Assembly: GCF_014174255.1 (NCBI RefSeq)
Contig: NZ_JABEQJ010000007.1
Coordinates: forward strand, 1 to 64,000
Direction of reading: 5' to 3'
Origin: Gluconacetobacter sacchari
GTDB lineage: Bacteria; Pseudomonadota; Alphaproteobacteria; Acetobacterales; Acetobacteraceae
DNA: 64,000 nucleotides
In this document: positions 48,154 through 60,198 of the stretch, one piece after another
Layout of the letters: each line of letters opens with the position of its first letter
Numbering within the stretch: the stretch's first letter is position 1
Translations under genes and position numbers: made by a program
The notes under the pieces: generated by a model
What the model saw: only the letters and a program-made list of their open reading frames with translations
What the model was told of the DNA's origin: nothing
Databases searched by the model: none

Positions 48154-48229
48154 GGGGCCATAGCTCAGTTGGGAGAGCGCCTGAATGGCATTCAGGAGGT
48201 CGTCGGTTCGATTCCGATTGGCTCCACCA
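48154..48229 (+). tRNA. tRNA-Ala(GGC), integration target
   Basis: A 76-nt cloverleaf with acceptor GGGGCCA/TGGCTCC including G3-U70, anticodon loop ATGGCAT (anticodon GGC, codon GCC) and encoded CCA. Its last 52 bases are repeated perfectly at 60116-60167, so the element to the right is integrated in this gene and restores its 3' end. Confidence 0.96.
48178..48229 (+). repeat. attL: 52-bp core repeat
   Basis: The 3' part of tRNA-Ala(GGC) from the anticodon stem to CCA, identical to 60116-60167. Confidence 0.95.
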
Positions 48230-48286
48230 GTCCCAACCTACAAATTTCCAAAATCAGCAGGTTGGCGAACAGGTGCGGTTGGGTCC

Positions 48287-48306
48287 TCCGGACTCAATCC
48301 GGACTC
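48287..48306 (+). promoter_or_regulatory. Left arm-type site: two CCGGACTC octamers
   Basis: T, then CCGGACTC, AAT, CCGGACTC: a 20-bp unit occurring identically at 59972-59991 and in the same direction. The two copies lie 57 and 124 bases from the core repeats on the element side, where tyrosine integrases bind their arm sites. Confidence 0.6.
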
Positions 48307-48568
48307 TTTCGCTGCCGTTTGAGTGGGCGGGCCTCCCCCAGGCTATTCACGACCCGCCCCCAAAAAAAGTTCTCAGAATTTCGCGGCGAAACATGAAGTG
48401 GGGGAACACGGTCCACATCGATAGGGGGCTCAGGTTTCGACCCCCCTACCCCTGGTCAAGCGCTGTGGCGGTGCTCGCAATGCAACGTGAAGCTATGCAC
48501 TTATGGCATGGCAATCGGTGGATCTTCCTTCACGATGCCTTGGCTTCTTTCCACCCATGCCCAAAAAA

Positions 48569-48678
48569 GGTGTTCCGGGTGTTCTAGGTGTTCCAACCCT
48601 TATTTATTATTATTTATCATATGGTTATAAGGAACACCTTTCTGAAAGAAGCTGGAACACCATTCCCAAAGGTGTTCC
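48569..48678. repeat. Left iteron module, GGTGTTCC type
   Basis: Three tandem 9-bp units begin at 48569, 48578 and 48587 (GGTGTTCCG, GGTGTTCTA, GGTGTTCCA). An A+T-rich stretch (48595-48630) follows, then inverted GGAACACC at 48631 and 48654 and a direct GGTGTTCC at 48671. The rest of 48230-48885 holds no convincing gene. Confidence 0.8.
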
Positions 48679-48885
48679 AGCGGTAGAGCATGAATTGGCG
48701 GTTTTCCGCCATTATCGGCGAGAGATCAGTGGTTGGTCATGCCTCCGAGCGGGCGACTATCAGCCTGTCAGGCCGTCCGATAGACATGCAAACGTTGCAT
48801 GTCTCGGCGTCTGTCGCTGTCCGCCTGCACCCATATTGGGTTCGAAATCCGGGAAAAAACCTTGTGCCGCCCGCAGCACCCGCGC

Positions 48886-49440
48886 TCAGTCGGCTGCGCC
48901 TTCCAGGACACGATAGACACTGGCCCGGCCAATGCCGAGCTGTCGGGCTATCTCGGATGCCCCAACGCCCTGACCGTGGAGCGAACGCACGCGCTCGACA
49001 TCGATCGATGCCTTACGGCCTTTATAGACGCCCCGTTCCTTGGCGGCGGCTATACCCTCAAGCTGCCGTTCGCGGCGGAGATTCGTCTCGAACTCGGCGA
49101 ACACACCCAGCATGTCGAGAAACGCCTTGCCGGCGGAGGTCGTGGTATCCACCGGCTGTTCGGTGCAGCGCAGGGCCGCCCCCTTCGTGCGCAGCTCAAT
49201 GACGATAGCTTGTAAATCAGCGATCGAGCGCGCCAGGCGGTCGATTCTCGTCACGACCAACGTGTCACCCTCGCGGATGAAGTCGAGCAGGATACGAAGC
49301 TCGGTCCGCCCTTTGGTCGAGGTGCCAGATGCTTTCTCAGACCGGATCGTCGTGCAGCCGGCGGCGGCGAGCGCGTCGTGCTGGATGGCAAGGTCCTGAT
49401 CGGTGGTCGAGACCCGCGCATATCCATATGTTGTGCTCAT
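48886..49440 (-). CDS. Serine recombinase, resolvase/invertase family
   Basis: Site-specific recombinase of 184 residues: catalytic Ser11 in YGYARVSTTDQDL, Arg residues in DTLVVTRIDRLARSIADL, the dimer helix region (GKAFLDMLGVFAEFETNLRRERQLEGI) and a C-terminal helix-turn-helix (GASEIARQLGIGRASVYRVL). It is the size of Tn3-type resolvases. A multi-part res-like site lies just upstream. In a self-replicating element such an enzyme would resolve dimers or help replication products separate. No transposase is present beside it. Confidence 0.93.
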   Translation of the reverse strand: MSTTYGYARVSTTDQDLAIQHDALAAAGCTTIRSEKASGTSTKGRTELRILLDFIREGDTLVVTRIDRLARSIADLQAIVIELRTKGAALRCTEQPVDTTTSAGKAFLDMLGVFAEFETNLRRERQLEGIAAAKERGVYKGRKASIDVERVRSLHGQGVGASEIARQLGIGRASVYRVLEGAAD

Positions 49441-49452
49441 GATCGCCTCGAA

Positions 49453-49582
49453 TGTCTCATTAGGGTTAAGACATTCCTGTTATGGCGTCTTATATGGTGA
49501 AACACAACCCTAATGAGACAGGAAAATCCTCACGTTTCGAAATGCTATGAGACGCCTCGTTGAGGTATACTCAAATAAGACA
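49453..49582. promoter_or_regulatory. Putative res site of the serine recombinase
   Basis: Six related half-sites of the form TGTCTYAT or its complement lie in 130 bp: 49453-49460, AGACATT at 49469-49475, CGTCTTAT 49486-49493, AATGAGACA ending 49520, ATGAGACG 49547-49554 and ATAAGACA 49575-49582. They form three inverted pairs with unequal centres, as in Tn3-type res sites. In addition a perfect 15-bp inverted repeat joins 49453-49467 with 49506-49520. Confidence 0.65.
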
Positions 49583-49634
49583 GTCTAAAGCCATGCGTTC
49601 AGAGCATGGCGATGACGGTAGAGCGGTGGCCGAT

Positions 49635-51542
49635 CTACCGATCCCCCTCATCAGATCCAAGAATGGCTGCCGCCACCTCATAGGCCCGCACCTTCTTGTG
49701 TCCAGGTGGCGAGATCAGGGCCGCCATCTTGCCGTCCCGACCGGGCAGCAGAAATCCGCGTTCAACCAGGACGGCCTTGGCACTCCGTTGGTTCAGCCCT
49801 GATAGGGCTTCGGCCATGCCTTCGCTCAGCAGGAAGAAGCGCCAGGTGGACCGTTCATCGGCTTCCTTGATCCATCGCTTCCAGCCAGCGCGATTCTGCG
49901 TACGGAACCTCTCGCCTGGCGGCAGGTCCGAAGCCTCGACCTGTTGCCCCTCCGGCTTGTCGTTATCGACCCAACGCTCGAACCGGGCCTCTCCATGTTT
50001 CGAGATGAAGTCGCGGAGCTGCTGCACCGCCTGTTCTTCTTCGCGCCGGCCGGCGGTACCGCGTTCGGTCAACCAGGCCGTGAAGCACAAGCCGGCCATG
50101 ACGCCGGGCACGTCGTCCTCCCACCCAGTCAGGCCGAATTGGGTGGCCAGCTCACCGCCGACCGCGACCATAGCAAATCGGGCAGCTACGCTACGCACCT
50201 GTCCGGATGCCGCCGGATAGTCCTTCAGCCAGCTTTCGGCCAAATCTGCGATGCGCGCGCGCAGGCGGAGGCGCAATTCGTCCTCGCTCTCCCGTGTCAT
50301 CGTATCTGTGAGCTGGCGCAGGAAGGCCCGTAGCGGCGCGCCGTAAGTCCGGCCGGTGGCGGCCCGGAGATAGCGGGCGAAGGCGTCGGGCGTGTCCTCA
50401 TGATGCAGGTATTCGAACAGGCCCATGCCCTCTCCGGCATCCGCCGGTAGGTCGGCAAACCGCACCTCCTGACCGGCCTTGGTCGTCTTACCCGCCTCGC
50501 GGTTCAGATCCGACAGGCCCAGTTCACCCGTGGAGAGGAACAGAATACGAAACCGGGCCACGTTCCGCGCCCCGCCGGTTCGGGTCGATCGTGCCTTTCC
50601 CTGCCCGTTCGATAACAGATAGGCGATCTCCCCCGCCTCGCGCGGATCGAGCTGCCCCATTTCGTCCAGGGGGAGCAGCACGTCGCATGATGCAAGGGCG
50701 GTGCTTTCGATGCCGTTCGAGGTCGAGCGCCAGGACCGAATATAACCGCCAGCTCCATTCTGACCCGTGCCGCCGCAGACGGACGCGGCGACCCGGAGCG
50801 CCGTGCTCTTACCGACCCGGCTGTCACCCTTGAACGAAATCCCACCGCCTTCCTCGCCCAGAAGCCCGAGCAACGGCGCCGCGAAGGCGCAGGACGCGGC
50901 GAACACCAGGCGCGAGTTCTTCGCGCACATGGCGCCGATCTCCCTACGCCAGTCTTCGACCGTGCCTGCCACTCCGAACAACGACGCTTCCCGATCCGTC
51001 GTTTGCAAGACGACACGTTCGCCCGCTTCGCCGATCGTCTCATCCGGCAGGACGAAGGCGGACCGCCCGCCAAAGGTGTGCCAGCCAATCCGCGTCACGC
51101 TCCGCGCCCGGTCCATGCTGGTCAGGCTCGACAACCATTCGAGGAAAGCAGCCTTTGCCGCCGTGCCGGCGCCCAGCGTCAGGCCGCCATCAGCCAGCCG
51201 GCTCCTGATCTCATTGCCGTCGCCCGCAAAGAGCGCACGTGGAAATGCCTCATCATGGCGCTTGCCGTCCCGGTCATGCCAGGCGAGCAGCAGGCCCCAA
51301 TTCTGGCCTTCTTCGTCCCGAGACTCCGCCAGGACATCGACCGGCCCGCAGATGAAGACCAGTTCCTTATCGCCTTTGCGCCGCCAAATCCCGCTGTCCA
51401 GGTAACGGAACCGCCGGTCTTCGCTCTCCGGTGCCGCCGCACCCGATGCTGTCGCCTGCTCCGGCCGGAACTGGACCACCTTGCCGTTCTCGATGCCGTC
51501 GCGCACGGCCTTGCGGCCGCCTTTGCCCTTACCTTCGCTCAT
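49635..51542 (-). CDS. DUF927 domain ATPase, helicase-like
   Basis: 635 residues. The DUF927 region (about 45-340) has GWHTFGGRSAFVLPDETIG and a Walker A motif FKGDSRVGKSTALRVAASVCGG (P-loop GDSRVGKS), followed by a Walker-B-like CDVLLPLDEMGQLDPREAGEIAYLL. DUF927 proteins are found beside Toprim primases in integrated elements and are thought to be replicative helicases. The C-terminal third has no known domain and could bind DNA such as the iterons. The start overlaps the primase stop as ATGA. Last gene of the element's main operon. Confidence 0.85.
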   Translation of the reverse strand: MSEGKGKGGRKAVRDGIENGKVVQFRPEQATASGAAAPESEDRRFRYLDSGIWRRKGDKELVFICGPVDVLAESRDEEGQNWGLLLAWHDRDGKRHDEAFPRALFAGDGNEIRSRLADGGLTLGAGTAAKAAFLEWLSSLTSMDRARSVTRIGWHTFGGRSAFVLPDETIGEAGERVVLQTTDREASLFGVAGTVEDWRREIGAMCAKNSRLVFAASCAFAAPLLGLLGEEGGGISFKGDSRVGKSTALRVAASVCGGTGQNGAGGYIRSWRSTSNGIESTALASCDVLLPLDEMGQLDPREAGEIAYLLSNGQGKARSTRTGGARNVARFRILFLSTGELGLSDLNREAGKTTKAGQEVRFADLPADAGEGMGLFEYLHHEDTPDAFARYLRAATGRTYGAPLRAFLRQLTDTMTRESEDELRLRLRARIADLAESWLKDYPAASGQVRSVAARFAMVAVGGELATQFGLTGWEDDVPGVMAGLCFTAWLTERGTAGRREEEQAVQQLRDFISKHGEARFERWVDNDKPEGQQVEASDLPPGERFRTQNRAGWKRWIKEADERSTWRFFLLSEGMAEALSGLNQRSAKAVLVERGFLLPGRDGKMAALISPPGHKKVRAYEVAAAILGSDEGDR

Positions 51543-52573
51543 ATGGTCTCATCTTGCAGGACATCGTTCCAGTCCCGCCCTTCTGTTTCGGGCATAGCGA
51601 GGCGCACGGCGCGCCCCTGGGACAGGAACCATTGGCAGGCGGTATCGAGCGCCCGCCGTGCGGCAGGATTGCCAGAATCATTGTCGGCGGCGAGGATCAC
51701 CGTGCCGATGGCGGCCGGTAGCTGGACCCGCGCCATGTTCGCCAGGGAAACCGCGCACAAAACCCGCCGCTCCGGGCAGGCCACCGCCACCGACAAAGCG
51801 GTTTCGATCCCCTCCGCCAGCACCACCGTCTCGCCAGCCGGAGACGCTGCCAGCGGCTTACCTGATGCGCCACGCCATAGACGGATGCAGCCGCCGGCAT
51901 AGGAACCGAGCGTCATCTTGGCGTCCCGCAGCGGTGCTTTGCCCCAGCCGCCGGATGGCAGCGGTGCCAACCAGGTGCGATGAACAGCCACCATGGCGCC
52001 ATCGGGCGCGCAGATCGCCGCGACCATTGCCGGCCACGCCCGGCGGCTTTCGCCATTCCAGAGATCGGGATGAAAGCGCAATGCCCCCGGCGCGCGGCCG
52101 AGTTCAGCCAGATCGACGCCCCGGCCGGCCAGATACGCGGCCACCGGCGAACCGGCCTTGACCGGCATCCCGGCCAGCCAGAGCTTACGGGCCGCGCCCC
52201 GCCGGGCCTGGGCATCCGCGTCGGTTTCGGTGGGGCGCGCCGCCGGCGGTGGGCGGCGCACTGTCGGGGCCGCCGGATTATCGTCCAGCCCCAGCCACCG
52301 CGTGGCCCAGCGCATCGCCTCCCGCCGATCGCCGGCGTAGAGGACGGCCGCGACCAGATCGAGAGCATCGCCCCGTTCACCCGAACTGAAATCCGCCCAT
52401 ACACCGGATCGTGTCCCGCCCAGGTGGACGGCGAGCGATTGCCCGCGTTCACCCGCCAGCGATCCGCACCGCCATTCTGTCCCGTCACGCCGGCCGTTCG
52501 GTAACAGCTCGCGCACCAGCGTGGGTGCCCGTTCGGCCAGCAGGCGGGCAAGAGTGGCGGCGCTGTGCCTCAT
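51539..52573 (-). CDS. Toprim-domain primase-like protein
   Basis: 344 residues. The N-terminal part (about 20-80) resembles the CHC2-type DNA-binding domain of phage primases without clear zinc ligands (ERGQSLAVHLGGTRSGVWADFSSGERGDALDLVA). The C-terminal Toprim domain has the Glu of VVLAEGIETALSVA and the Asp pair in ILAADNDSGNPAA. Similar proteins prime replication in P4-like and plasmid-like elements. It overlaps both neighbours by four bases, so primase and helicase-like ATPase are made together. Confidence 0.85.
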   Translation of the reverse strand: MRHSAATLARLLAERAPTLVRELLPNGRRDGTEWRCGSLAGERGQSLAVHLGGTRSGVWADFSSGERGDALDLVAAVLYAGDRREAMRWATRWLGLDDNPAAPTVRRPPPAARPTETDADAQARRGAARKLWLAGMPVKAGSPVAAYLAGRGVDLAELGRAPGALRFHPDLWNGESRRAWPAMVAAICAPDGAMVAVHRTWLAPLPSGGWGKAPLRDAKMTLGSYAGGCIRLWRGASGKPLAASPAGETVVLAEGIETALSVAVACPERRVLCAVSLANMARVQLPAAIGTVILAADNDSGNPAARRALDTACQWFLSQGRAVRLAMPETEGRDWNDVLQDETI

Positions 52574-53139
52574 GATGCCAGGGCCTCACGAAGGCGGATG
52601 ACGGGAGTATTTTGGTCTTCCCATTCGACGGTGGCATGGCCTGCAAGCACAGCGCCGGCGGCCATATCGAACGTGGTTGCGCCGTGCATGATCGCTGACC
52701 AGTCATGGCGATCCACCCAGTCGAGGATGGGACGAAGCACGCTTTCCGCCTCGATGGCGGCACGGAACGACGTAAGGACCGGCTCCATGAAGACATGCCG
52801 CGTGTCTGCCGGGATACCTCCCTTGTTCACAAGGAACGTATTGTAGAACGCCCAAGCCTGATCCAGGGGAGACCACAAATCATGTCGCGTGGAGAGGAGT
52901 GATACAGAAGAGCGCGTTATCCATGGGCGGCCTGCCCATCCCATCCACGCAATATCACTTTCGACATGAAACCTTCCCATGCTGAATTCACTGATTGAGC
53001 AAAGGAAGTTCTCGGTTGGTTCCCAATTTTTGCCTTCAAACCAAATGGTTCCATCACCCTGATCGAGCAGCCTCAATTCGGTGACATCCACATTGGGAAA
53101 TCCCGTTGTCACCATAGGGAGAGATGAATGGCCCGTCAT
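52570..53139 (-). CDS. Unknown protein of the replication operon (189 residues)
   Basis: Start at the ATG giving MTGHSSLPMVTTGFPNVDVT, overlapping the upstream stop as ATGA; its own stop overlaps the primase start the same way. It is soluble, Trp-rich in the first half (GTIWFEGKNWEPTENFLCSI, DIAWMGWAGRPWITRSS), with a C-terminal Ala-rich region. No domain is recognised. Base composition is lower in G+C than its neighbours. Co-translation with primase and helicase suggests a part in replication or its control. Confidence 0.75.
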   Translation of the reverse strand: MTGHSSLPMVTTGFPNVDVTELRLLDQGDGTIWFEGKNWEPTENFLCSISEFSMGRFHVESDIAWMGWAGRPWITRSSVSLLSTRHDLWSPLDQAWAFYNTFLVNKGGIPADTRHVFMEPVLTSFRAAIEAESVLRPILDWVDRHDWSAIMHGATTFDMAAGAVLAGHATVEWEDQNTPVIRLREALAS

Positions 53140-53768
53140 GCCGCGATCCTCCGCATTTCGCGCTGGATCGCGCCCATGGTCAGGCCCGAGAGACCGGCGA
53201 CCAATGTTCTGACCGCCCTGTCCCGGCCTTCCGCTGTTTCGACCAGCACGGGCCAGTTCAGTTCCTCCAGCCATAGATCGAGCCGACATGGCAGCGGTTC
53301 GTCCCGGAAGGCTGTCAGATCGGCCGCAATCCCGCGGTGGGAGGGCCGCAGATCGTGCAGCACGATCCGGCCGACCTGTTCAATAGTCGCCGCCTCCGGT
53401 GGTTGCCGGAACGCCACCCGCAGCGCCGCCAGGGCGCTCGAGAGCGGGCGGCGCACCAGACCCTTGAGCGCCACCATATAAGCGGCACCGCTGCCGGTTA
53501 CCGCCGCTTTGCCCAGGCGATCGAGGCCGGCGACGGTATCCAGGAAGGCCGCGACCGGTTCGGACCAGAGCCAGAGCATATTGAGGTCGAAGGAGTGCAG
53601 GCTGAGCGGCAGACTATGCCGCCGCAGCGCCCGGTCCGGCATCGCCGCCGGGTCGGCGAGCAGGTCGCGCATAACCCGGACAGCCCTGCCGAGCAGGGAG
53701 GCATCGAAGGATGATGCGTCCATGTCGCAATGAGGCGCCGGGCCTGTCGTGAGCGCCACCGCCATCAT
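53136..53768 (-). CDS. Unknown protein of the replication operon (210 residues)
   Basis: Mostly alpha-helical, with Leu- and Arg-rich segments (LLGRAVRVMRDLLADP, ALRRHSLPLSLHSFDLNMLWLW, GLVRRPLSSALAALRVAF). No motif is recognised. It overlaps the AlpA-like gene at its start and the 189-residue gene at its end, both by four bases. The fixed overlaps make it part of the replication unit; its job is not known. Confidence 0.75.
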   Translation of the reverse strand: MMAVALTTGPAPHCDMDASSFDASLLGRAVRVMRDLLADPAAMPDRALRRHSLPLSLHSFDLNMLWLWSEPVAAFLDTVAGLDRLGKAAVTGSGAAYMVALKGLVRRPLSSALAALRVAFRQPPEAATIEQVGRIVLHDLRPSHRGIAADLTAFRDEPLPCRLDLWLEELNWPVLVETAEGRDRAVRTLVAGLSGLTMGAIQREMRRIAA

Positions 53769-54040
53769 TGCCCACCGCCGATGCGACGCACCGTCGCTTC
53801 GCTGGTCGAGCGCACGGACCGGCTGGCGATCCAGCTTTGCAAATCCGCCACCGCATAACCAATCCGGCGATCGGACAGGCGCACGAAGGGCGGTCCGGAA
53901 CCATCCAGCCTTTTTCCCTGCAATGTGCGGGGCGCCATATTCAGCATCGCGGCGGCTTCCCCTTCCGAGACGACGAGGCGCACCGGGGCTGCCGTCGATC
54001 GGGTTTCAACAACCGAGTTCGTGTGATCCACGATCATCAT
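53765..54040 (-). CDS. AlpA-like helix-turn-helix protein
   Basis: 91 residues with an AlpA/excisionase-type winged helix: VVSEGEAAAMLNMAPRTLQGKRLDGSGPPFVRLSDRRIGYAVADLQSWIASR. Such proteins activate or help integrase in P4-type elements and often control the following operon. It is the first gene of the overlapping set leading to primase and helicase. The gap before it (54041-54127) has TATCGGCGG-like repeats near the end of the neighbouring gene that might be binding sites. Confidence 0.85.
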   Translation of the reverse strand: MMIVDHTNSVVETRSTAAPVRLVVSEGEAAAMLNMAPRTLQGKRLDGSGPPFVRLSDRRIGYAVADLQSWIASRSVRSTSEATVRRIGGGQ

Positions 54041-54127
54041 CCGTTCTGAGCATTTGCGGACGCGGGATGCGCCCGAACGATGCCAAGATGTGCGGGTGGG
54101 CCGCCCTATGTCAGCCGATATGGCCGA

Positions 54128-54877
54128 TTATGATTTTTCGGTATTATCGGCGGATATATCGGCGGCCACTTCGTGAAGGATCGCCCGGATCTGGCTATCA
54201 CTGAGTGTGAACCCCTCCCCCTCGAGCCTTTCCGCTAACTCCCTTTCTCGATCGGCAAGAGTATCCCCAGGATCCTGGTGGAAGCCTGCCCCATGATGCA
54301 GGAGCATCTCATGTGCAATTTCTCTTGCTCGCGTGCCCGCATGCGATCGGGGCCGCCCACGCTTCGCCTGTGACACTGCTACGACTGCTGCCGTCGCTTT
54401 TCCTTGGTTATTACTGGCGGTGGGGGTAGCACCGATGCGCGAGCGTTCCATCTCCGCACTGGTCGTGGAAATCCTGATGTTTCTGACGATCACCTTGCCG
54501 TCACGAACCGCGTCATCACCCCATGCGAACAGTTCGGCATATGTCCACATCTCTGCCGGCAGCGCGACGGGCACCAGATGATTGCCCCCGCCTTCCGGAA
54601 AGCCCGTCGCGACCAGCTCGCCCGCTGCCAGTTTGTCCCGCAGGCGGCGGTTCAACTCCGCACGGAGCCGGTCCGCCTCGATCCGTAGCTTCGGCGTGTA
54701 GGCAGTGACGATAGGGAGCGCAATAAACCCCCGTTCTTCCAGGGACAGCAGCCGTTCGACCATCTCGCGGTCCCCGAATGCGCGCTCCGCGTCATCGACG
54801 GATAGAGGGCCACTCCGGGCTTTCTCATGCAGTTCCGTCAGTCGCGCCGAGAGGGGCGGCGTTTCGTCTTCATCCAT
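54128..54877 (-). CDS. Unknown charged protein of the element (249 residues)
   Basis: Starts MDEDETPPLSARLTELHEK; the open frame upstream looks unlike coding sequence. The first half is a helical region with LRIEADRLRAELNRRLRDKL, then a compact part (HLVPVALPAEMWTYAELFAWGDDAVRDGKVIVRNIRIS), then a basic segment QAKRGRPRSHAGTRAREIAHEML and an acidic tail with FTLSDSQIRAIL. The GRPR stretch recalls AT-hook-like DNA contacts. No family is recognised; a DNA-binding role is a guess. Confidence 0.7.
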   Translation of the reverse strand: MDEDETPPLSARLTELHEKARSGPLSVDDAERAFGDREMVERLLSLEERGFIALPIVTAYTPKLRIEADRLRAELNRRLRDKLAAGELVATGFPEGGGNHLVPVALPAEMWTYAELFAWGDDAVRDGKVIVRNIRISTTSAEMERSRIGATPTASNNQGKATAAVVAVSQAKRGRPRSHAGTRAREIAHEMLLHHGAGFHQDPGDTLADRERELAERLEGEGFTLSDSQIRAILHEVAADISADNTEKS

Positions 54878-55070
54878 TTCCGCCCCACGACGGCCGCCCC
54901 CACGTATGATCGGGTGCGGCGCGGCGGGCCAGTCGTGGGGTCCCGGCGTTCGGCGGCCAAACCTAGCCGCGCCGGCGCTGAGCATCGCGCCGCTGGACAG
55001 CCGCCGCAAGCACAAAGACGGAACATCGCCGGCATGGCGGTGGGGGCGCATCAGATCGTCGGGGCGGCAA

Positions 55071-55301
55071 TCATCTGTCCGCTGCCATGTCATTGATGAT
55101 GGCGCAGCGTTGTTCAATCTGATGGCCGGCCCACGATACCGCGCAGCCCAGTGCGGAGAAATCGGCTTCGCTGGGTGAGCCGATCGTCTGCGCTGCCGCG
55201 TTTCCTGCCCACCGCAGGAGGGTGGCGAGGCTGGACAGATCATTGCTCACGCGCTCGATATTCTCGATGTGCTGAGCTGAATAGACGAACTTCCGCTTCA
55301 T
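55071..55301 (-). CDS. Small unknown protein (76 residues)
   Basis: MKRKFVYSAQHIENIERVSN and onward; helical, soluble, no known motif. The ATG overlaps the upstream gene's stop as ATGA, so it belongs to the same transcript starting at 55974. A 193-bp gap separates it from the 249-residue gene. Confidence 0.7.
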   Translation of the reverse strand: MKRKFVYSAQHIENIERVSNDLSSLATLLRWAGNAAAQTIGSPSEADFSALGCAVSWAGHQIEQRCAIINDMAADR

Positions 55302-55807
55302 GAGCCGACCTCCATTCGCAGCAGGTCGGCGCAGAGGGACCAGGCCAGAGATTTCTGCACATCAATATCGGACGGCGGTTCGGAGGGCGGCATCATGGTT
55401 CCGTCCCGCCTGGTCCATTTCCTTTCGTCAATTTCGCGCATCAGGACGCGGGCTTTGGCTTGCAGACCGGACAGGCCATGTGCTGGCAGGTTGGCAACCC
55501 GTTCGGCATGCGCCCATATCCGGTCAATGGTCGCCTCCTGGTCCGCCATGAGCGCCGGCGGTGGGATCACCATACGGGTGGCCGGGTGGGTTTCCGAAGC
55601 CAGATAGGCGGCGAAATATCCCGCTGCCTCGGCCACCAGCATATCATCCGACCCCGCCGGGGCAGGCCGGGCAGATGCAGGCCTGAGCGGCCCGACAGCG
55701 GTGGCGACGGAGGCAATGCACCCCGACATGAGGTGCCGGCGGGACGGCACGATTGCGCCCAGGCCGGTCCTCGGGCGATGGCGGCCATCGTGGTGGAGGG
55801 CGGTCAT
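55298..55807 (-). CDS. Unknown protein with possible Tat-type signal (169 residues)
   Basis: The N-terminus has VPSRRHLMSGCIASVATAVGPL, a twin-arginine followed by a modest hydrophobic stretch, which could be an export signal, though the hydrophobic core is short. The rest is helical and soluble (MADQEATIDRIWAHAERVANLP, SLAWSLCADLLRMEVG). No domain is recognised. It overlaps both neighbours by four bases. Confidence 0.68.
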   Translation of the reverse strand: MTALHHDGRHRPRTGLGAIVPSRRHLMSGCIASVATAVGPLRPASARPAPAGSDDMLVAEAAGYFAAYLASETHPATRMVIPPPALMADQEATIDRIWAHAERVANLPAHGLSGLQAKARVLMREIDERKWTRRDGTMMPPSEPPSDIDVQKSLAWSLCADLLRMEVGS

Positions 55808-55974
55808 CGCACTGTCTCCACCGCATAGGCATGGCCGGAGGCCACGGGATCGGAGGTGCCCAGGCCGACGACGGCCAGGGCGATCAAGAAGGGAACGATC
55901 AGCGCCACCAGGATATGGGCGCGTGGCTCCGCTGCCCGCGTGGACGCGGGTGTGCTATGGGCGTTCTCAGCCAT
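55804..55974 (-). CDS. Single-helix membrane protein (56 residues)
   Basis: A short gene: MAENAHSTPASTRAAEPRA, then one membrane helix (HILVALIVPFLIALAVVGLG) and a short tail. GAGG lies seven bases before the ATG, and the stop overlaps the next start as ATGA, which supports a real gene. It heads the leftward operon of the element and faces the XRE regulator across two palindromic operators. Function unknown. Confidence 0.65.
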   Translation of the reverse strand: MAENAHSTPASTRAAEPRAHILVALIVPFLIALAVVGLGTSDPVASGHAYAVETVR

Positions 55975-56062
55975 TGCCGAACCTCAGCTTCGGTTGTGGT
56001 CAGGCTGGCTTCGGTGTTGGCGCACCGCTGTCAGCCGCTTTTGATTGGCAAAATGCCCAACC

Positions 56063-56110
56063 TCAATTAGGGTGATTGATCTAGGTTGTCACGTCAATCA
56101 AAAAGATTGA
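56063..56110. promoter_or_regulatory. Two 17-bp palindromic operators for the XRE regulator
   Basis: TCAATTAGGGTGATTGA at 56063-56079 and TCAATCAAAAAGATTGA at 56094-56110 share TCAAT-N7-ATTGA and are 31 bp apart, about three helical turns. They occupy the gap between the leftward operon (start 55974) and the XRE/MazF-type genes, so one regulator could control both. Confidence 0.65.
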
Positions 56111-56115
56111 GGCTT

Positions 56116-56418
56116 GTGGAGATAACAACAGCACAATGCCGTGGCGCTCGCGCCATGCTCGGCATTAGCCAAACGGAACTCGCCGCAGCGGCCGCTGTTT
56201 CGCGGCAGACGGTGGTGGATTTTGAGCGTGGCGCACGTACGCCCTATCCGAACAATCTGACAGCCATTCGTGCGGCCCTTGAAGCCGCCGGCGTCGAATT
56301 CATCCCGGAAAACGGAGGTGGAGCGGGTGTAAGGCTGAAGAGGGGCGCGTACACTGTCCAGGCGGCGCCCGGCGGGAGCGATCCTGACGATTTGAAGGCC
56401 GGGAAGGCAGAAGTTTAG
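56116..56418 (+). CDS. XRE-family helix-turn-helix protein, probable antitoxin/repressor
   Basis: About 100 residues from the GTG at 56116; a TTG at 56086 is the limit of the frame but would put the second operator inside the gene. The helix-turn-helix is TTAQCRGARAMLGISQTELAAAAAVSRQTVVDFERGARTPYPNNLTAIRAALE; the C-terminal part (VRLKRGAYTVQ) may bind the toxin. It is followed four bases later by a MazF/PemK-like gene, so it is read as the antitoxin and autorepressor. It could also act as the immunity-type regulator of the element. Confidence 0.85.
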   Translation: MEITTAQCRGARAMLGISQTELAAAAAVSRQTVVDFERGARTPYPNNLTAIRAALEAAGVEFIPENGGGAGVRLKRGAYTVQAAPGGSDPDDLKAGKAEV

Positions 56419-56422
56419 GCAT

Positions 56423-56851
56423 ATGGCGGTCGAGAAGGCACCTAACCTCGGGCAAATTGTCCTGTGTGATTTCAGCGCGGGTTTCAAAGAGCCAGAAATG
56501 GTGAAGCGCCGCCCGGTGGTTGTCATCAGCCCCCCGATATCCTGGCGCCCGGGCTTATGCACCGTCGTTGCCCTCAGCACCACGCCCCCCGATCCGGCCC
56601 GCCCCTATCATTGTCGGCTGGTGCTCGATCCGCTTCCGCCCAGCCCTTGGGATAGCCCGGAAGTATGGGTGAAGGCCGACCTTATCATGACCGTGGGGTT
56701 TCACCGGCTGGATTTGATCCGGTGCGGACGCAATCCAGCCAGCGGGAAAAGGCAGTATTATACGAAATGCCTTTCGAAAGAGCAGCTTGCAACCGTCAGG
56801 AAATGTGTCCTGCATGGGCTGGGGCTTTTCGGATTGACAAAGCACCTTTGA
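56423..56851 (+). CDS. PemK/MazF-family toxin-like protein
   Basis: 142 residues with the MazF-type barrel pattern: GQIVLCDFSAGFKEPEMVKRRPVVVISPP at the N-terminus, then CTVVALSTTPP, and VKADLIMTVGFHRLDLIRC. MazF-family toxins are mRNA interferases that stall translation. The chain is longer than classical MazF (about 110). It is translated right after the XRE protein, the order of many type II pairs, and would favour retention of the element. Catalytic Arg (KRRP) and the Ser/Thr strand are present; activity is inferred. Confidence 0.82.
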   Translation: MAVEKAPNLGQIVLCDFSAGFKEPEMVKRRPVVVISPPISWRPGLCTVVALSTTPPDPARPYHCRLVLDPLPPSPWDSPEVWVKADLIMTVGFHRLDLIRCGRNPASGKRQYYTKCLSKEQLATVRKCVLHGLGLFGLTKHL

Positions 56852-56966
56852 CGCACAAATAAACCATTGTGCGCTGCTCTCCAGCCGCAAGGCGGATCAG
56901 CATCTAAGACCCCGTAAGGGGCCGCTGTACAACCGGGTCATAACAAGCCTATGTGCAGCGCGGAGC

Positions 56967-56993
56967 AAGGGCCGGCCCTCGGGTCGGCCCTTT
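56967..56993 (+). terminator. Hairpin downstream of the MazF-like gene
   Basis: AAGGGCCG at 56967-56974 pairs with CGGCCCTT at 56985-56992, with TTTG after. It lies between the rightward toxin gene and the leftward YdaS-like gene and may serve both. Confidence 0.55.
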
Positions 56994-57108
56994 GTCGTCT
57001 CTGGCACCTCCATGCTGAAATGGGATGCGACCCTGTTTCAACTATCTGGAATTTCCGGAGAGTTCAGACCGAGGGCGCGCAGGCCCAAGGCGGACTGAAG
57101 GGCGAAGA

Positions 57109-57747
57109 TCATCCATCCGACGGGTGATGCGATGACGGCGCGATGGGAACATGGTCCAGAAAGGCCGCAGGAAGGCCGGAGCGGGCCATGGCGCGGTTCT
57201 GCGCTACCCGGCGTTCGTTTGCGCGTGCAACCCCTTCCTGCGCCGTCTGTAGCCGGCTGGTGAGGTGTTCGATGGCGTCCTGCCGCATATCCAGCATTTC
57301 GGGCCGCCAGATCGTGCGTTCGCGGGCCAGACAGGCTTCGGCTTCCAGCAGCTCGGCCGCGATCCGGTCCCGTTCGGCTTCGGCGTCCAGGCATGCTTGC
57401 TCTGCCCGCGCCAGGACCGTTCGTGCGGCGTGGACGATCCGCCAGGCGAGCAGGAGTTCCAGCAGCGTCGTGGTCTCGCCAGCGGCCAGACGGGCCAGAT
57501 TGAGGTCGGGCCGCAGGATACCGGGCGGCACGCCCAGCATGGCCGCCACCGTCTCGACATGCCGACGCGGGACACGCTTCCACTCACTGACTGACTGGGG
57601 CGTGATGGCACCACAGGCCGCCGCGATTTGGCTGATGTCCCCCCACCGCCGGAAGATCGGATACCCCATCATCAGGCGCCACGGCGCTTCGGGGCCACGT
57701 TGCCTAGGGGGATTCGGAGGCGCTGACTGGCGGGCTGCGCTGGACAT
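57109..57747 (-). CDS. YdaS-like helix-turn-helix protein with coiled coil
   Basis: Up to 212 residues; the family-like part starts at MMGYPIFRRWGDISQIAAACG (57672), so that ATG may be the true start. The N-terminal helix-turn-helix (ISQIAAACGAITPQSVSEWKRVPRRHVETVAAMLGV) matches Cro/YdaS-type prophage regulators. A long charged helix follows (ARAEQACLDAEAERDRIAAELLEAEACLARER...), likely a coiled coil. It is probably a regulator of the element; its partner is unknown. Confidence 0.7.
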   Translation of the reverse strand: MSSAARQSAPPNPPRQRGPEAPWRLMMGYPIFRRWGDISQIAAACGAITPQSVSEWKRVPRRHVETVAAMLGVPPGILRPDLNLARLAAGETTTLLELLLAWRIVHAARTVLARAEQACLDAEAERDRIAAELLEAEACLARERTIWRPEMLDMRQDAIEHLTSRLQTAQEGVARANERRVAQNRAMARSGLPAAFLDHVPIAPSSHHPSDG

Positions 57748-57830
57748 GAGCCCGTTGTCGCAAACCCGAGGCGCGGTGGTGCATGGCCATCGGTGGTGGG
57801 CAGGGCGTTATTCAGGAGCGGGGCCAACAC

Positions 57831-57855
57831 AACCTGTAAGAAAGCCTTACAGGTT
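57831..57855. repeat. Perfect inverted repeat at the broken toxin end
   Basis: AACCTGTAAG and CTTACAGGTT with a five-base centre. The right arm covers the stop codon of the PIN remnant. It may be a terminator or the scar of the rearrangement that cut the toxin. Confidence 0.6.
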
Positions 57856-57918
57856 CGGCAGGGGCGGCTCCCGCTCAGGGTAAAGGACACAGGCATCCAG
57901 CAGGGCGACGAAGGCCAT
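57847..57918 (-). pseudogene. N-terminal fragment of a PIN-domain toxin
   Basis: The 23-codon frame MAFVALLDACVLYP then EREPPLPNL starts five bases after the upstream antitoxin stop. The first 14 residues match the start of PIN (VapC-like) nucleases, including the first catalytic Asp in LLDACVLYP. The other acidic residues and the rest of the roughly 190-residue domain are missing, and unrelated sequence follows. It is a decayed toxin. Confidence 0.7.
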
Positions 57919-57923
57919 GTGGC

Positions 57924-58388
57924 TCAGTAACCCATGCCGAGTTCCTGAGCCTCCGCAGCCAGCGCATCCATGGCGTCATCCGAGGTCGTGTTGCGGGCTT
58001 CCATGTAGGCCAGGAGGTCCTGCAACTGGATGCGGCGGTGCGTCCCGACCTTCTTGAAGGGCAGTTTGTCCTGTTCCAGCAGGCTGACCAGATAGGGACG
58101 CGACACATTCAGCAGGTCCGCCGCCTGTTGGGTTGTCAGCTCGGCATGCCGGGGCATGACCGCGACCGACCGTCCTTCGGCGAGTTGGGCCATCATGTCC
58201 GTCAGAAGCCGGACGGCGGCTGCCGGCAGGACGAAGGTCTGCCGTTCACCCGTATCCGCCTGGGCATCCACCTGAACGCAACCATTGCCGCTGAGCTTGG
58301 CCAGGGCGCGACTGGCTTCCTGCGCCGCCAGGCGGTCGGCATCCGACACAAATCCGGGCTCTACAGCCTTCAGCATAGACATCGCCAT
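57924..58388 (-). CDS. Excisionase-type helix-turn-helix antitoxin
   Basis: 154 residues. The C-terminal half is a MerR/excisionase-like winged helix (LTTQQAADLLNVSRPYLVSLLEQDKLPFKKVGTHRRIQLQDLLAYME), the N-terminal half a helical domain (LPAAAVRLLTDMMAQLAEGRSVAVMP). Proteins of this build are antitoxins paired with a downstream PIN toxin; here that toxin is only a 23-codon stub, so the antitoxin is left alone. It could have been kept as an integrase helper (Xis-like), since the integrase is the next gene upstream. Confidence 0.82.
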   Translation of the reverse strand: MAMSMLKAVEPGFVSDADRLAAQEASRALAKLSGNGCVQVDAQADTGERQTFVLPAAAVRLLTDMMAQLAEGRSVAVMPRHAELTTQQAADLLNVSRPYLVSLLEQDKLPFKKVGTHRRIQLQDLLAYMEARNTTSDDAMDALAAEAQELGMGY

Positions 58389-58488
58389 GGTTCATCCCCT
58401 CCGGCCTCATGTATGGGTCAAATTGGCCTAAACGCAATAAACGAAAGAGCGATGAAGGATAGCGTTTCATCACCCGTCGCTGCCCAGG

Positions 58489-59796
58489 TCATGGCCGCAA
58501 CGGCACCACATTGTCGGCCGTGCCACTGGCGGTTCCCGCCGATACGGCCAGCACATGCCGCGCCCAGCTATCCAGCGCCGCCGCCCGCTCGGCTTCGAAT
58601 TCGTGACGCTGGTAGACCGCCGCCACGCCCTTGATGGCTCCACCCACATGGTTCAGCACGCGATCGGCGACATGGTGACCGATCCCCAGGCGCGCCATGA
58701 CCGTCACCCCGGTCCGCCGCAAGTCATGCAACCGCCAATCCGGCCCTGGCGTGGGCTGGGCTTCTTTTCCCGCTGGGGTGTCCTCTGCTGCCGCCATCGC
58801 CTTTTGCAGCCGCACCTTGGCTTTGGAGAAGCCACTGATGGGCGTCCGGCCATTCGTGGTGAAGACATAGGGTGACAGAGAGCCGGTCTTCGGATCGGTC
58901 TGCCTGGGCAGGTCAGCAAGGACACGCCGGGCGGCTTCCGAGAGATGGACGATATGCGCCCGACCGTTCTTCGCCCGCGCGGCCGGCAACGTCCAGGTGG
59001 TCAGGTCAGGGTCCAGTTCGGCCCAGGTCATGGCTGCCACTTCGTCGCGGCGTTGCAGCGTCAGGGTCAGCAGGTGGACGAATGGGCCGAACGGGTAAGG
59101 CAGCCGGCCGGCGGCATTCCACAATGTCGCCAACTCCAGGTCCGTCAGCACGCGGTCGCGTGAAACCTCTTCGCCTTCCACGATCACGCTGGCGAAGACG
59201 TTGGCCGACACGAACTGCCGCTTCTGCGCCCAGGTGAACATGGCGCGCCCGTAGGCATGGAGCCGGCGAGCCATGATTGGGTGAGCTGACGCGATGTCAT
59301 CCAGGCGCGCTTGGATTTCCCCCGTGGCGATTGAGCGGGCGGGGCGATTCTTCATGACAGCGAAGGCCGATAGCAGCCTGTCCGGCGCATCCTTGCGGTA
59401 GGAGGCGCTCTTCTCGCGTAGGGCCCCATCCCGCCATCGTTCGACCAATACCCGGAAGGTCAGGGCGTCGGCGGCGGTCTCAGCCTTCTGGCGCACTCGC
59501 TCTTCCTTTGCGGCCAGGGCGAGGGCCTTTCTTTCCCCAGCTGGATCGCCCCCTTCCCTCGCCCGGCCACGCGCGGCCTCGGCCATCTTCCGGGCCTGGG
59601 GCGGTGTCAATTCGCCGTATGGACCCAGGACCATGCGCCTGACGCGCCCGGCGAACCGATATTGGAACAGGATGACCTTTGATCCTGTCTCGGTCACCCG
59701 GACCGCGAACCCAGGCAGCGAATCGTCCATGAACATGGCGTCCCGCTTCCCCGGCGGGCAGGCCAAGGCGTCGATTTCCCGTTTTGTCAGCTTCAT
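58489..59796 (-). CDS. int: P4-type tyrosine integrase
   Basis: Inserts and excises the element at tRNA-Ala. The ATG giving MKLTKREIDAL fits the family N-terminus and yields 435 residues: DUF4102 arm-binding domain (about 1-90, LTKREIDALACPPGKRDAMFMDDSLPGFAVRV), central core-binding domain and C-terminal catalytic domain with Arg250 (LQRRDEVAAM), His357 and Arg360 (HDLRRTGVT), His in LNHVGG and the nucleophile Tyr395 (AVYQRHEFE). All catalytic residues are present, so it should be active. It lies next to attR and is transcribed inward, its upstream region carrying iterons and the right arm site. Confidence 0.96.
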   Translation of the reverse strand: MKLTKREIDALACPPGKRDAMFMDDSLPGFAVRVTETGSKVILFQYRFAGRVRRMVLGPYGELTPPQARKMAEAARGRAREGGDPAGERKALALAAKEERVRQKAETAADALTFRVLVERWRDGALREKSASYRKDAPDRLLSAFAVMKNRPARSIATGEIQARLDDIASAHPIMARRLHAYGRAMFTWAQKRQFVSANVFASVIVEGEEVSRDRVLTDLELATLWNAAGRLPYPFGPFVHLLTLTLQRRDEVAAMTWAELDPDLTTWTLPAARAKNGRAHIVHLSEAARRVLADLPRQTDPKTGSLSPYVFTTNGRTPISGFSKAKVRLQKAMAAAEDTPAGKEAQPTPGPDWRLHDLRRTGVTVMARLGIGHHVADRVLNHVGGAIKGVAAVYQRHEFEAERAAALDSWARHVLAVSAGTASGTADNVVPLRP

Positions 59797-59806
59797 GCGA
59801 CCGCCC

Positions 59807-59934
59807 GGAACACCTTGGAACACCTTTCAAAACCAAAGGTGTTCCGGTGTTCCTTGGAAAAAACACAATAAATACAATATATTACTATGTGTGGAACACC
59901 TAGAACACCTAGAACACCTATATTTAAGTGTTCC
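59807..59934. repeat. Right iteron module, GGAACACC type
   Basis: GGAACACC at 59807 and 59817, direct GGTGTTCC at 59838 and 59846, an A+T-rich stretch (59854-59892), then three tandem 9-bp units at 59893, 59902 and 59911 (GGAACACCT, AGAACACCT, AGAACACCT) and a final GTGTTCC at 59928. Read on the opposite strand it has the same order as the left module. It overlaps the integrase promoter region. Confidence 0.8.
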
Positions 59935-59971: not shown

Positions 59972-59991
59972 TCCGGACTCAATCCGGACTC
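59972..59991 (+). promoter_or_regulatory. Right arm-type site: two CCGGACTC octamers
   Basis: Identical 20-bp unit to 48287-48306, same direction, 124 bases inside attR. Confidence 0.6.
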
Positions 59992-60115: not shown

Positions 60116-60167
60116 CGCCTGAATGGCATTCAGGAGGTCGTCGGTTCGATTCCGATTGGCTCCACCA
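60116..60167 (+). repeat. attR: 52-bp core repeat
   Basis: Perfect copy of the 3' 52 bases of tRNA-Ala(GGC). The 5' part of a tRNA is absent, so this is not a second gene. Confidence 0.95.
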
Positions 60168-60198
60168 ATCCTTCCGGCCCTTTTTTCCAGACAATCCT

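Follow-up and report, generated by a model that had tools for sequence, protein, structure and literature searches.

A compact integrated element with iteron modules at both ends

The window analysed here (64,000 bp, positions 1 to 64,000 of contig NZ_JABEQJ010000007.1 from Gluconacetobacter sacchari assembly GCF_014174255.1) contains a mobile element of about 12 kb inserted in a tRNA-Ala(GGC) gene, and at each end of this element lies a module of short repeats, or iterons, the two modules together forming a candidate bipartite replication origin. The element is bounded by copies of a 56-bp direct repeat that are 98% identical, attL (48178-48233, plus strand) lying in the 3' part of the tRNA gene (48154-48229) and attR (60116-60171, plus strand) at the far end. 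Relatives with an empty site agree with these limits. With the right flank as query, 13 of 14 genomes of the same genus matched, the element's own genome included, and in 11 of the other 12 an intact tRNA-Ala and both flanks lie no more than about 0.9 kb from each other; in L277 and L279 the flanks abut directly. At the same site in L282 (genome G277) only a 3' fragment of the tRNA-Ala precedes the right flank, and this locus therefore seems to hold a different insertion.

The element combines in a small space an integrase, a primase and a replication protein of the DUF927 type, and is probably a tRNA-Ala-integrated replicon, either satellite-like or resembling an integrative and mobilizable element. 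The genes concerned are all on the minus strand: a small serine resolvase of 184 aa (48886-49440; Pfam Resolvase), the DUF927 protein, a candidate AAA+ initiator helicase (49635-51542; PF06048, E = 9.8e-93), a primase-like protein (51539-52573; DUF7146 and Toprim_3 in Pfam, DNA primase in PHROG) and a tyrosine integrase with an arm-binding domain (58489-59796; Arm-DNA-bind_3 and Phage_integrase within 58489-59793). The DUF927 protein matches the solved helicase 5dgk of a staphylococcal cassette chromosome (SCC; E = 3.2e-8) and the pathogenicity island protein 8tch (E = 7.7e-5). Toprim and DUF927 occupy separate open reading frames (ORFs), and there is no alpha-type fused primase-helicase.

The left module (48569-48678) begins with an iteron triple on the plus strand (48569-48594), in which three GGTGTTCY units start at 48569, 48578 and 48587 with a spacing of 9 bp. 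An A+T-rich core, the candidate unwinding site, follows (48595-48630, 83% A+T), and then the inner iterons (48631-48678), at 48631 and 48654 on the minus strand and 48671 on the plus strand. The right module (59807-59918) is built from the same parts, with the same core and spacing: inner iterons (59807-59853) at 59807 and 59817 on the minus strand and 59838 and 59846 on the plus strand, a core (59854-59892, 79% A+T) and, on the minus strand, a triple with units at 59893, 59902 and 59911 (59893-59918), the inverse of the left triple. One further iteron with a single mismatch, AGTGTTCC, lies outside the right triple on the plus strand (59927-59934). The first-pass annotation had described tandem units, core and inverted copies at each end, with the right module inverse to the left; all are present in the sequence, and the inversion agrees both with the orientation of the units and with the 88% complementarity of the arms 48563-48595 and 59892-59924. 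The cores are singular within the element, whose overall A+T fraction is 0.37: the only 36-nt windows at or above 0.75 A+T start at 48582-48608 and 59847-59867, that is, at the two cores.

Window counts, a genome-wide tandem search and the locus shuffles described below rule out chance repeats. The window holds 15 exact matches to GGTGTTCY against 2.58 expected, the largest count in 100 shuffles being 7, and 13 of the 15 fall inside the two modules. An octamer as frequent elsewhere in the chromosome would have spoken against the proposed origin; tandem octamer pairs (at most one mismatch) occur four times in the 4.83-Mb genome, all within the two triples, compared with one match for a reversed-pattern control. 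In the integrated state the triples are about 11 kb apart. In the predicted excised circle they would face each other across attP, as had been proposed, with 588 bp between them (532 bp without counting the att repeat) rather than the roughly 570 bp first estimated.

Half-modules accompany DUF927 genes in relatives

The association of such modules with DUF927 was assessed in a sample drawn with PF06048 alone, blind to iterons, which gave 57 places in 49 of 249 genomes of the family. A half-module was recognised by an equally iteron-blind rule: a tandem triple, an inverted copy at offset 30-100 and a direct copy at offset 55-130. One was found near 43 of the 57 DUF927 loci, at least three of these looking spurious (L256 and L263 look like GC-rich coding motifs). 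When the loci were shuffled by a first-order Markov model, the rule called a half-module in 8 of 171 shuffles. By eye, ATCACA-type iterons that the rule missed can be seen upstream of int in L253 and L256.

The rule places modules on both strands in 23 of the 57 loci, among them L273, which is probably another spurious GC-rich coding motif, and manual reading of the maps adds opposite partners in L224, L232, L235, L240, L247, L250, L251, L268, L271 and L272. In none of the 57 are there two modules on one strand only. Exactly two modules are present at 30 of 100 loci examined, a set that includes the duplicate region L181/L196, the inverted duplication L199 and L273, and they are inverted in 29 of the 30; the single same-orientation exception, L213, is a coding repeat. 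Since two-module loci are so consistently inverted, and none of the DUF927 loci has its modules on one strand only, the halves seem to act as a pair.

Viral contigs gave no match in a single-sequence DUF927 scan and 129 with an alignment query; in the best 80 of these 129, many of them near-identical, the strict rule finds a half-module in 68 and modules on both strands in 18. The expectation that terminal modules would recur in close relatives was borne out, in that they are found alongside DUF927 elements. A pattern search of 397 genomes of the family, its own included, with up to two mismatches matched 24 genomes and listed 37 places, nine of which were discarded as an unrelated conserved string containing GGTGATGC.

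The G. sacchari genome itself contains another, distant DUF927 gene (L272, G000:C2:99392-100201), which has a joined iteron pair of another sequence, GAGACCTA. Because this gene has its own, different pair, the cell seems to hold origins of two types.

Iterons match between the two ends of an element

The iteron sequence varies between elements (GGTGTTCC, GGTGTGAC, GTGTAACC, TGGCAACG, TGTGCCCC and others). Within an element the two ends agree. End matching was tested in 30 elements, 24 with an independent call at each end and six without one on one side. The mean end-to-end match score was 6.2 within the 24 element pairs, a value not reached in any of 20,000 permutations, and 2.2 between elements; 21 of the 24 scored at least 5.

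Spacing is also patterned. Offsets of the direct sites cluster at 71-75 with 81-84, at 94-97 with 102-105, and at 115, with peaks near 73, 94 and 115 bp, so that the steps are of about 21 bp, or about two helical turns. End-matched iterons and stepped offsets are the pattern that would be expected from one protein complex bound to both ends.

Joined, facing and split arrangements

In the joined arrangement the two halves lie together just past DUF927, within some 140-260 bp; examples are L176, L180, L190, L248 and Legionella fallonii plasmid III. Facing pairs are found on the circular plasmids pSR-7 (98 bp apart) and pMNOD05 (1.9 kb, across the record start) and on the viral contig L205 (about 470 bp), and on pZ1323 the halves are 2.0 kb apart. 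Two readings did not stand: the viral contig L205/L053 was rejected as an excised form, the sequence between its modules being covered by a 211-aa ORF, and counts as a facing pair only, no att search having been made there; Azotobacter L199 was dropped as a natural facing pair, both of its modules lying inside a large inverted duplication. No excised split element was found; of two contigs with 127-bp terminal repeats, which were read as closed circles, L349 has a joined pair and L334 no module. On the plasmid pCECT9189-4 (L220, 6339-6634), which has a protelomerase gene as well as DUF927, two half-modules face each other at a distance of 83 bp. In L297 (IMG/VR 3300036715_003087, 8058 bp) both contig ends lie in an inverted repeat holding a DUF927-type half-module; this is either a linear replicon whose ends carry origins or a palindromic facing pair at which the assembly broke.

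An att site outside both halves was sought in 23 split loci. A tRNA 3'-end repeat is present on the other side in 18 of them, although in eight of these the repeat is short, at about 15-18 bp; a weaker repeat, not at a tRNA, is seen in L255, and the other four yielded none. All of the 18 but L238 have a shorter arc through att than through the element. Relatives inserted in other tRNA genes show the facing placement around att as well. In eight tRNA-anchored elements int adjoins a module; their interiors span 6.6-17.1 kb, and their arcs through att, excluding the att repeat, measure 510 (L230), 532 (the present element), 569, 652, 655, 669, 1078 and 1870 bp. In the other split elements the arc through att measures 1.6-5.2 kb, and in L175, L192, L232 and L236 it contains an int match. 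L230 has two left half-modules, at 770 and 2420, 1.65 kb apart, the 510-bp arc using the outer one; this may reflect insertion, nested or in tandem, at the same tRNA-Ala.

A tree was built from 84 DUF927 proteins, those longer than 700 aa being cut to their last 700 residues and L181 being dropped as a copy of L196, and arrangement labels were set by hand, leaving 30 of the 84 rows unlabelled. A single group of 23 rows (Shimodaira-Hasegawa-like approximate likelihood ratio test, 99) contains the ten int-adjacent split elements, together with two joined and eleven unlabelled rows. Across the tree joined and split forms intermix, and at least 11 changes of the joined label are forced by the starred branches. 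Because of this intermixing, the halves have probably been separated or brought together on several occasions, their inverted orientation being kept throughout.

A candidate origin with attP between its halves

Since the modules go with DUF927 genes, keep a conserved geometry, carry matched, element-specific iterons and occur on plasmids and satellites, the proposal of a bipartite DUF927 origin, made of two inverted half-modules with a common iteron, is well supported by comparison. In such an origin the DUF927 protein would bind the iterons, each A+T-rich core would be melted, each triple would load a single helicase ring at the core beside it, and the halves would act together. One half lies beyond the DUF927 and resolvase genes and the other directly upstream of int, with attP falling in the spacer. 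Integration separates the halves to 11 kb and excision would bring them to within 588 bp, a proximity that the origin may need, so that excision would make initiation efficient or possible whilst integration would keep the element quiet. That the DUF927 helicase and Toprim primase initiate at two iteron half-origins governed in this way is, in our judgement, rather probable.

The first-pass annotation had pictured a two-part origin, reminiscent of that of P4 but tied to excision. The origin itself is upheld by comparison, as is the att-spanning placement by the relatives; assembly of the origin only after excision is no more than consistent with the arrangement in this element's subfamily, and the likeness is closer to the phage-inducible chromosomal islands (PICIs) and Staphylococcus aureus pathogenicity islands (SaPIs) than to P4. 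The most pointed form of the proposal, in which attP lies inside the origin, integration would split and inactivate it, excision would reactivate it and recombination would itself be the replication switch with no repressor needed, is tentative, and we give it somewhat less than an even chance. A quiet origin in integrated elements is usually credited to repressors. An origin cut in two by integration would, if true, be a structural answer to origin silence in the chromosome and an alternative to them.

Several observations weigh against this interpretation. Some concern the link between modules and DUF927: by the rule 14 of the 57 DUF927 loci have no half-module (5 of them on stretches shorter than 8 kb), and, when the search was begun from an exact iteron triple, giving at least 21 viral and at least 117 genome stretches, a DUF927 gene was detected, in the pieces as fetched, for 1 of the 21 viral and 7 of the 117 genome matches listed. 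Because of these low numbers the triple cannot by itself serve as a diagnostic mark. In a cruder test, based on repeat counts, the 630 bp that follow DUF927 outscored all control windows of the same stretch in 32 of 91 loci; the present element fails it because its module is placed on the far side of the resolvase gene. The GC skew of five plasmids gave no usable signal, and an AlphaFold model of the DUF927 protein, from 7 sequences, had a mean pLDDT (predicted local distance difference test) of 51.8 and was not used. Others concern proximity. In many DUF927 elements the two halves sit joined next to the helicase gene; L226, L227, L232, L236, L250 and L251 have 3.1-5.2 kb between the halves even in the circle; and in L238 the shorter arc lies inside the element. 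Close apposition is therefore not a rule of the family. Finally, joined elements have their triples on the outside and the cores within, whereas facing pairs and the predicted circle have the triples on the inside, so that excision does not exactly recreate the PICI geometry; either inverted-pair geometry could give two opposite forks.

The strongest rival is a two-site origin that works at any distance by looping, or two independent end origins, excision being irrelevant and the terminal position merely reflecting where non-coding DNA lies. The ori and crr sites of P4 form a two-site origin through protein-mediated looping. The spread of separations, from joined pairs through the 2.0 kb of pZ1323 to the circles of 3.1-5.2 kb, fits this rival, the last being the main argument for looping, and each end does have its own core with iterons on both sides. 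However, the near-universal inversion of two-module loci, and the lack of any DUF927 locus with its modules on one strand only, suggest that the halves act as a pair, and six of the eight int-adjacent elements keep 510-669 bp across att while the interior varies 2.4-fold. We regard looping or independent origins as unlikely, though as a rival to be taken seriously.

A second rival makes the right module mainly an operator, through which DUF927 or a helix-turn-helix (HTH) protein controls int and couples integration and excision to replication, leaving the left module as the sole origin. The position of the module favours some such role: the likely ATG of the integrase, at 59796, is 11 bp from the nearest right-module iteron (59807), and the int-side module is likewise beside the int match in L173, L174, L181 and L184. 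Yet L175, L192, L236 and L241 keep the module, in the same orientation, although there the int match is situated outside it, with the 3' end of int facing it. The right module also shares its core and spacing with the left, and an operator role is compatible with an origin. As an explanation of its own this is improbable; within the bipartite origin, the right module may also act on int.

That the modules are integrase arm-type sites or resolvase res sites was rejected as very improbable, since, in spite of their nearness to att and to both recombinase genes, a separate TCCGGACTC-type direct repeat at both ends fits arm sites, different repeats adjoin the resolvase gene, the iterons match at both ends within single elements, and similar GGTGTTC-type modules adjoin DUF927 where the integrase is dissimilar or none was detected using this element's integrase as query. 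The candidate arm sites are at 48287-48306, where two TCCGGACTC units lie 11 bp apart, and at 59972-59991, where the same type of repeat has the same orientation (both plus strand). In this element and in L173, L174, L222 and L224 the distance from these repeats to att is 53-75 bp at one end and 121-132 bp at the other, and they are likelier arm sites than the iteron modules. Repeats of the TGTCTTAT/TGTCTCAT type lie in 49441-49634, between the resolvase and DUF927 genes, and likewise downstream of DUF927 in L174 and L222; they are perhaps the res site of the resolvase.

Separately, the half-module (triple, core, inner iterons and their offsets) provides an iteron-independent signature for finding the origins of DUF927 elements, which are present in 49 of 249 genomes of the family.

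Relation to known systems

P4 has two separated cis sites, ori1 and crr, with the same octamer, and the present element resembles it, by anatomy alone, in having two separated iteron sites. It differs in having one gene for the Toprim primase and another for the DUF927 helicase, and in the placing of its sites on either side of attP. The P4 alpha protein is described as a primase-helicase fusion (PMC7145576).

The closest published parallel is the PICI/SaPI origin rather than P4 ori/crr. Passages of PMC7581432 state that the C-terminal domain of SaPI Rep recognises iterons directly downstream of rep. In PMC6092414 (legend of Fig. 2 and passages) an AT-rich region with a set of iterons on either side is given as a constant feature of PICI origins, and a pri-rep-ori segment is said to drive plasmid replication; the joined DUF927 elements match that description of the origin. 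The likeness extends to a DUF927-type Rep (SaPIBov1), a separate primase, iterons around an A+T-rich core and an origin 3' of rep. In the present element, however, the iteron sets are not contiguous: one triple is at least about 0.96 kb from the DUF927 stop, with the resolvase gene between, and the other, by int, is 11.3 kb away, with attP between the two. A further difference from PICIs is that no phage structural or packaging family (terminase, capsid) was recognised among the 10 of its 14 ORFs scanned against PHROGs.

SCC elements share the DUF927 domain, Cch being reported to contain it and to be related to SaPIBov1 Rep (PMC7581432; also PMC5862659 and PMC10061031), and SCC helicase 5dgk is the best solved relative of the present DUF927 protein. 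Unlike SCC, this element uses a tyrosine integrase and a tRNA target; the recombinases recognised in it are this integrase and the 184-aa resolvase, and there is no large serine ccr. For the non-DUF927 Cch2, the origin described in PMC7581432 is also different, being one site downstream of cch2.

The plasmids pMNOD05 and pSR-7 are alike in having facing inverted half-modules, one just after DUF927, and unlike in being plasmids with different iteron sequences. No other Rep was found in their gene tables (20 of 20 features for pMNOD05, 38 of 43 for pSR-7) or among nine pMNOD05 proteins compared with Pfam. In titles and abstracts of the open-licence papers listed, no description of an origin divided by attP was recognised, which is weak evidence of novelty. 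An Escherichia coli satellite-like island (L218, 11014-18204) carries a TOPRIM-DUF927 fusion gene together with a gene for phage polarity suppression and retron St85 cargo, and has an iteron cluster directly after the helicase gene.

Other genes of the element

The remaining genes include several of no recognised function. Two HTH_17 proteins are encoded on the minus strand, one at 53765-54040 (a Pfam match below the cut-off) and one at 57924-58388, with a PHROG HTH match and a weak match to a PHROG excisionase or regulator. At 56086-56851, on the plus strand and thus opposite to the resolvase, DUF927, primase and integrase genes, domain matches identify an HTH_3 protein followed by a PemK-like toxin, a putative toxin-antitoxin pair that is likely to stabilise the element.

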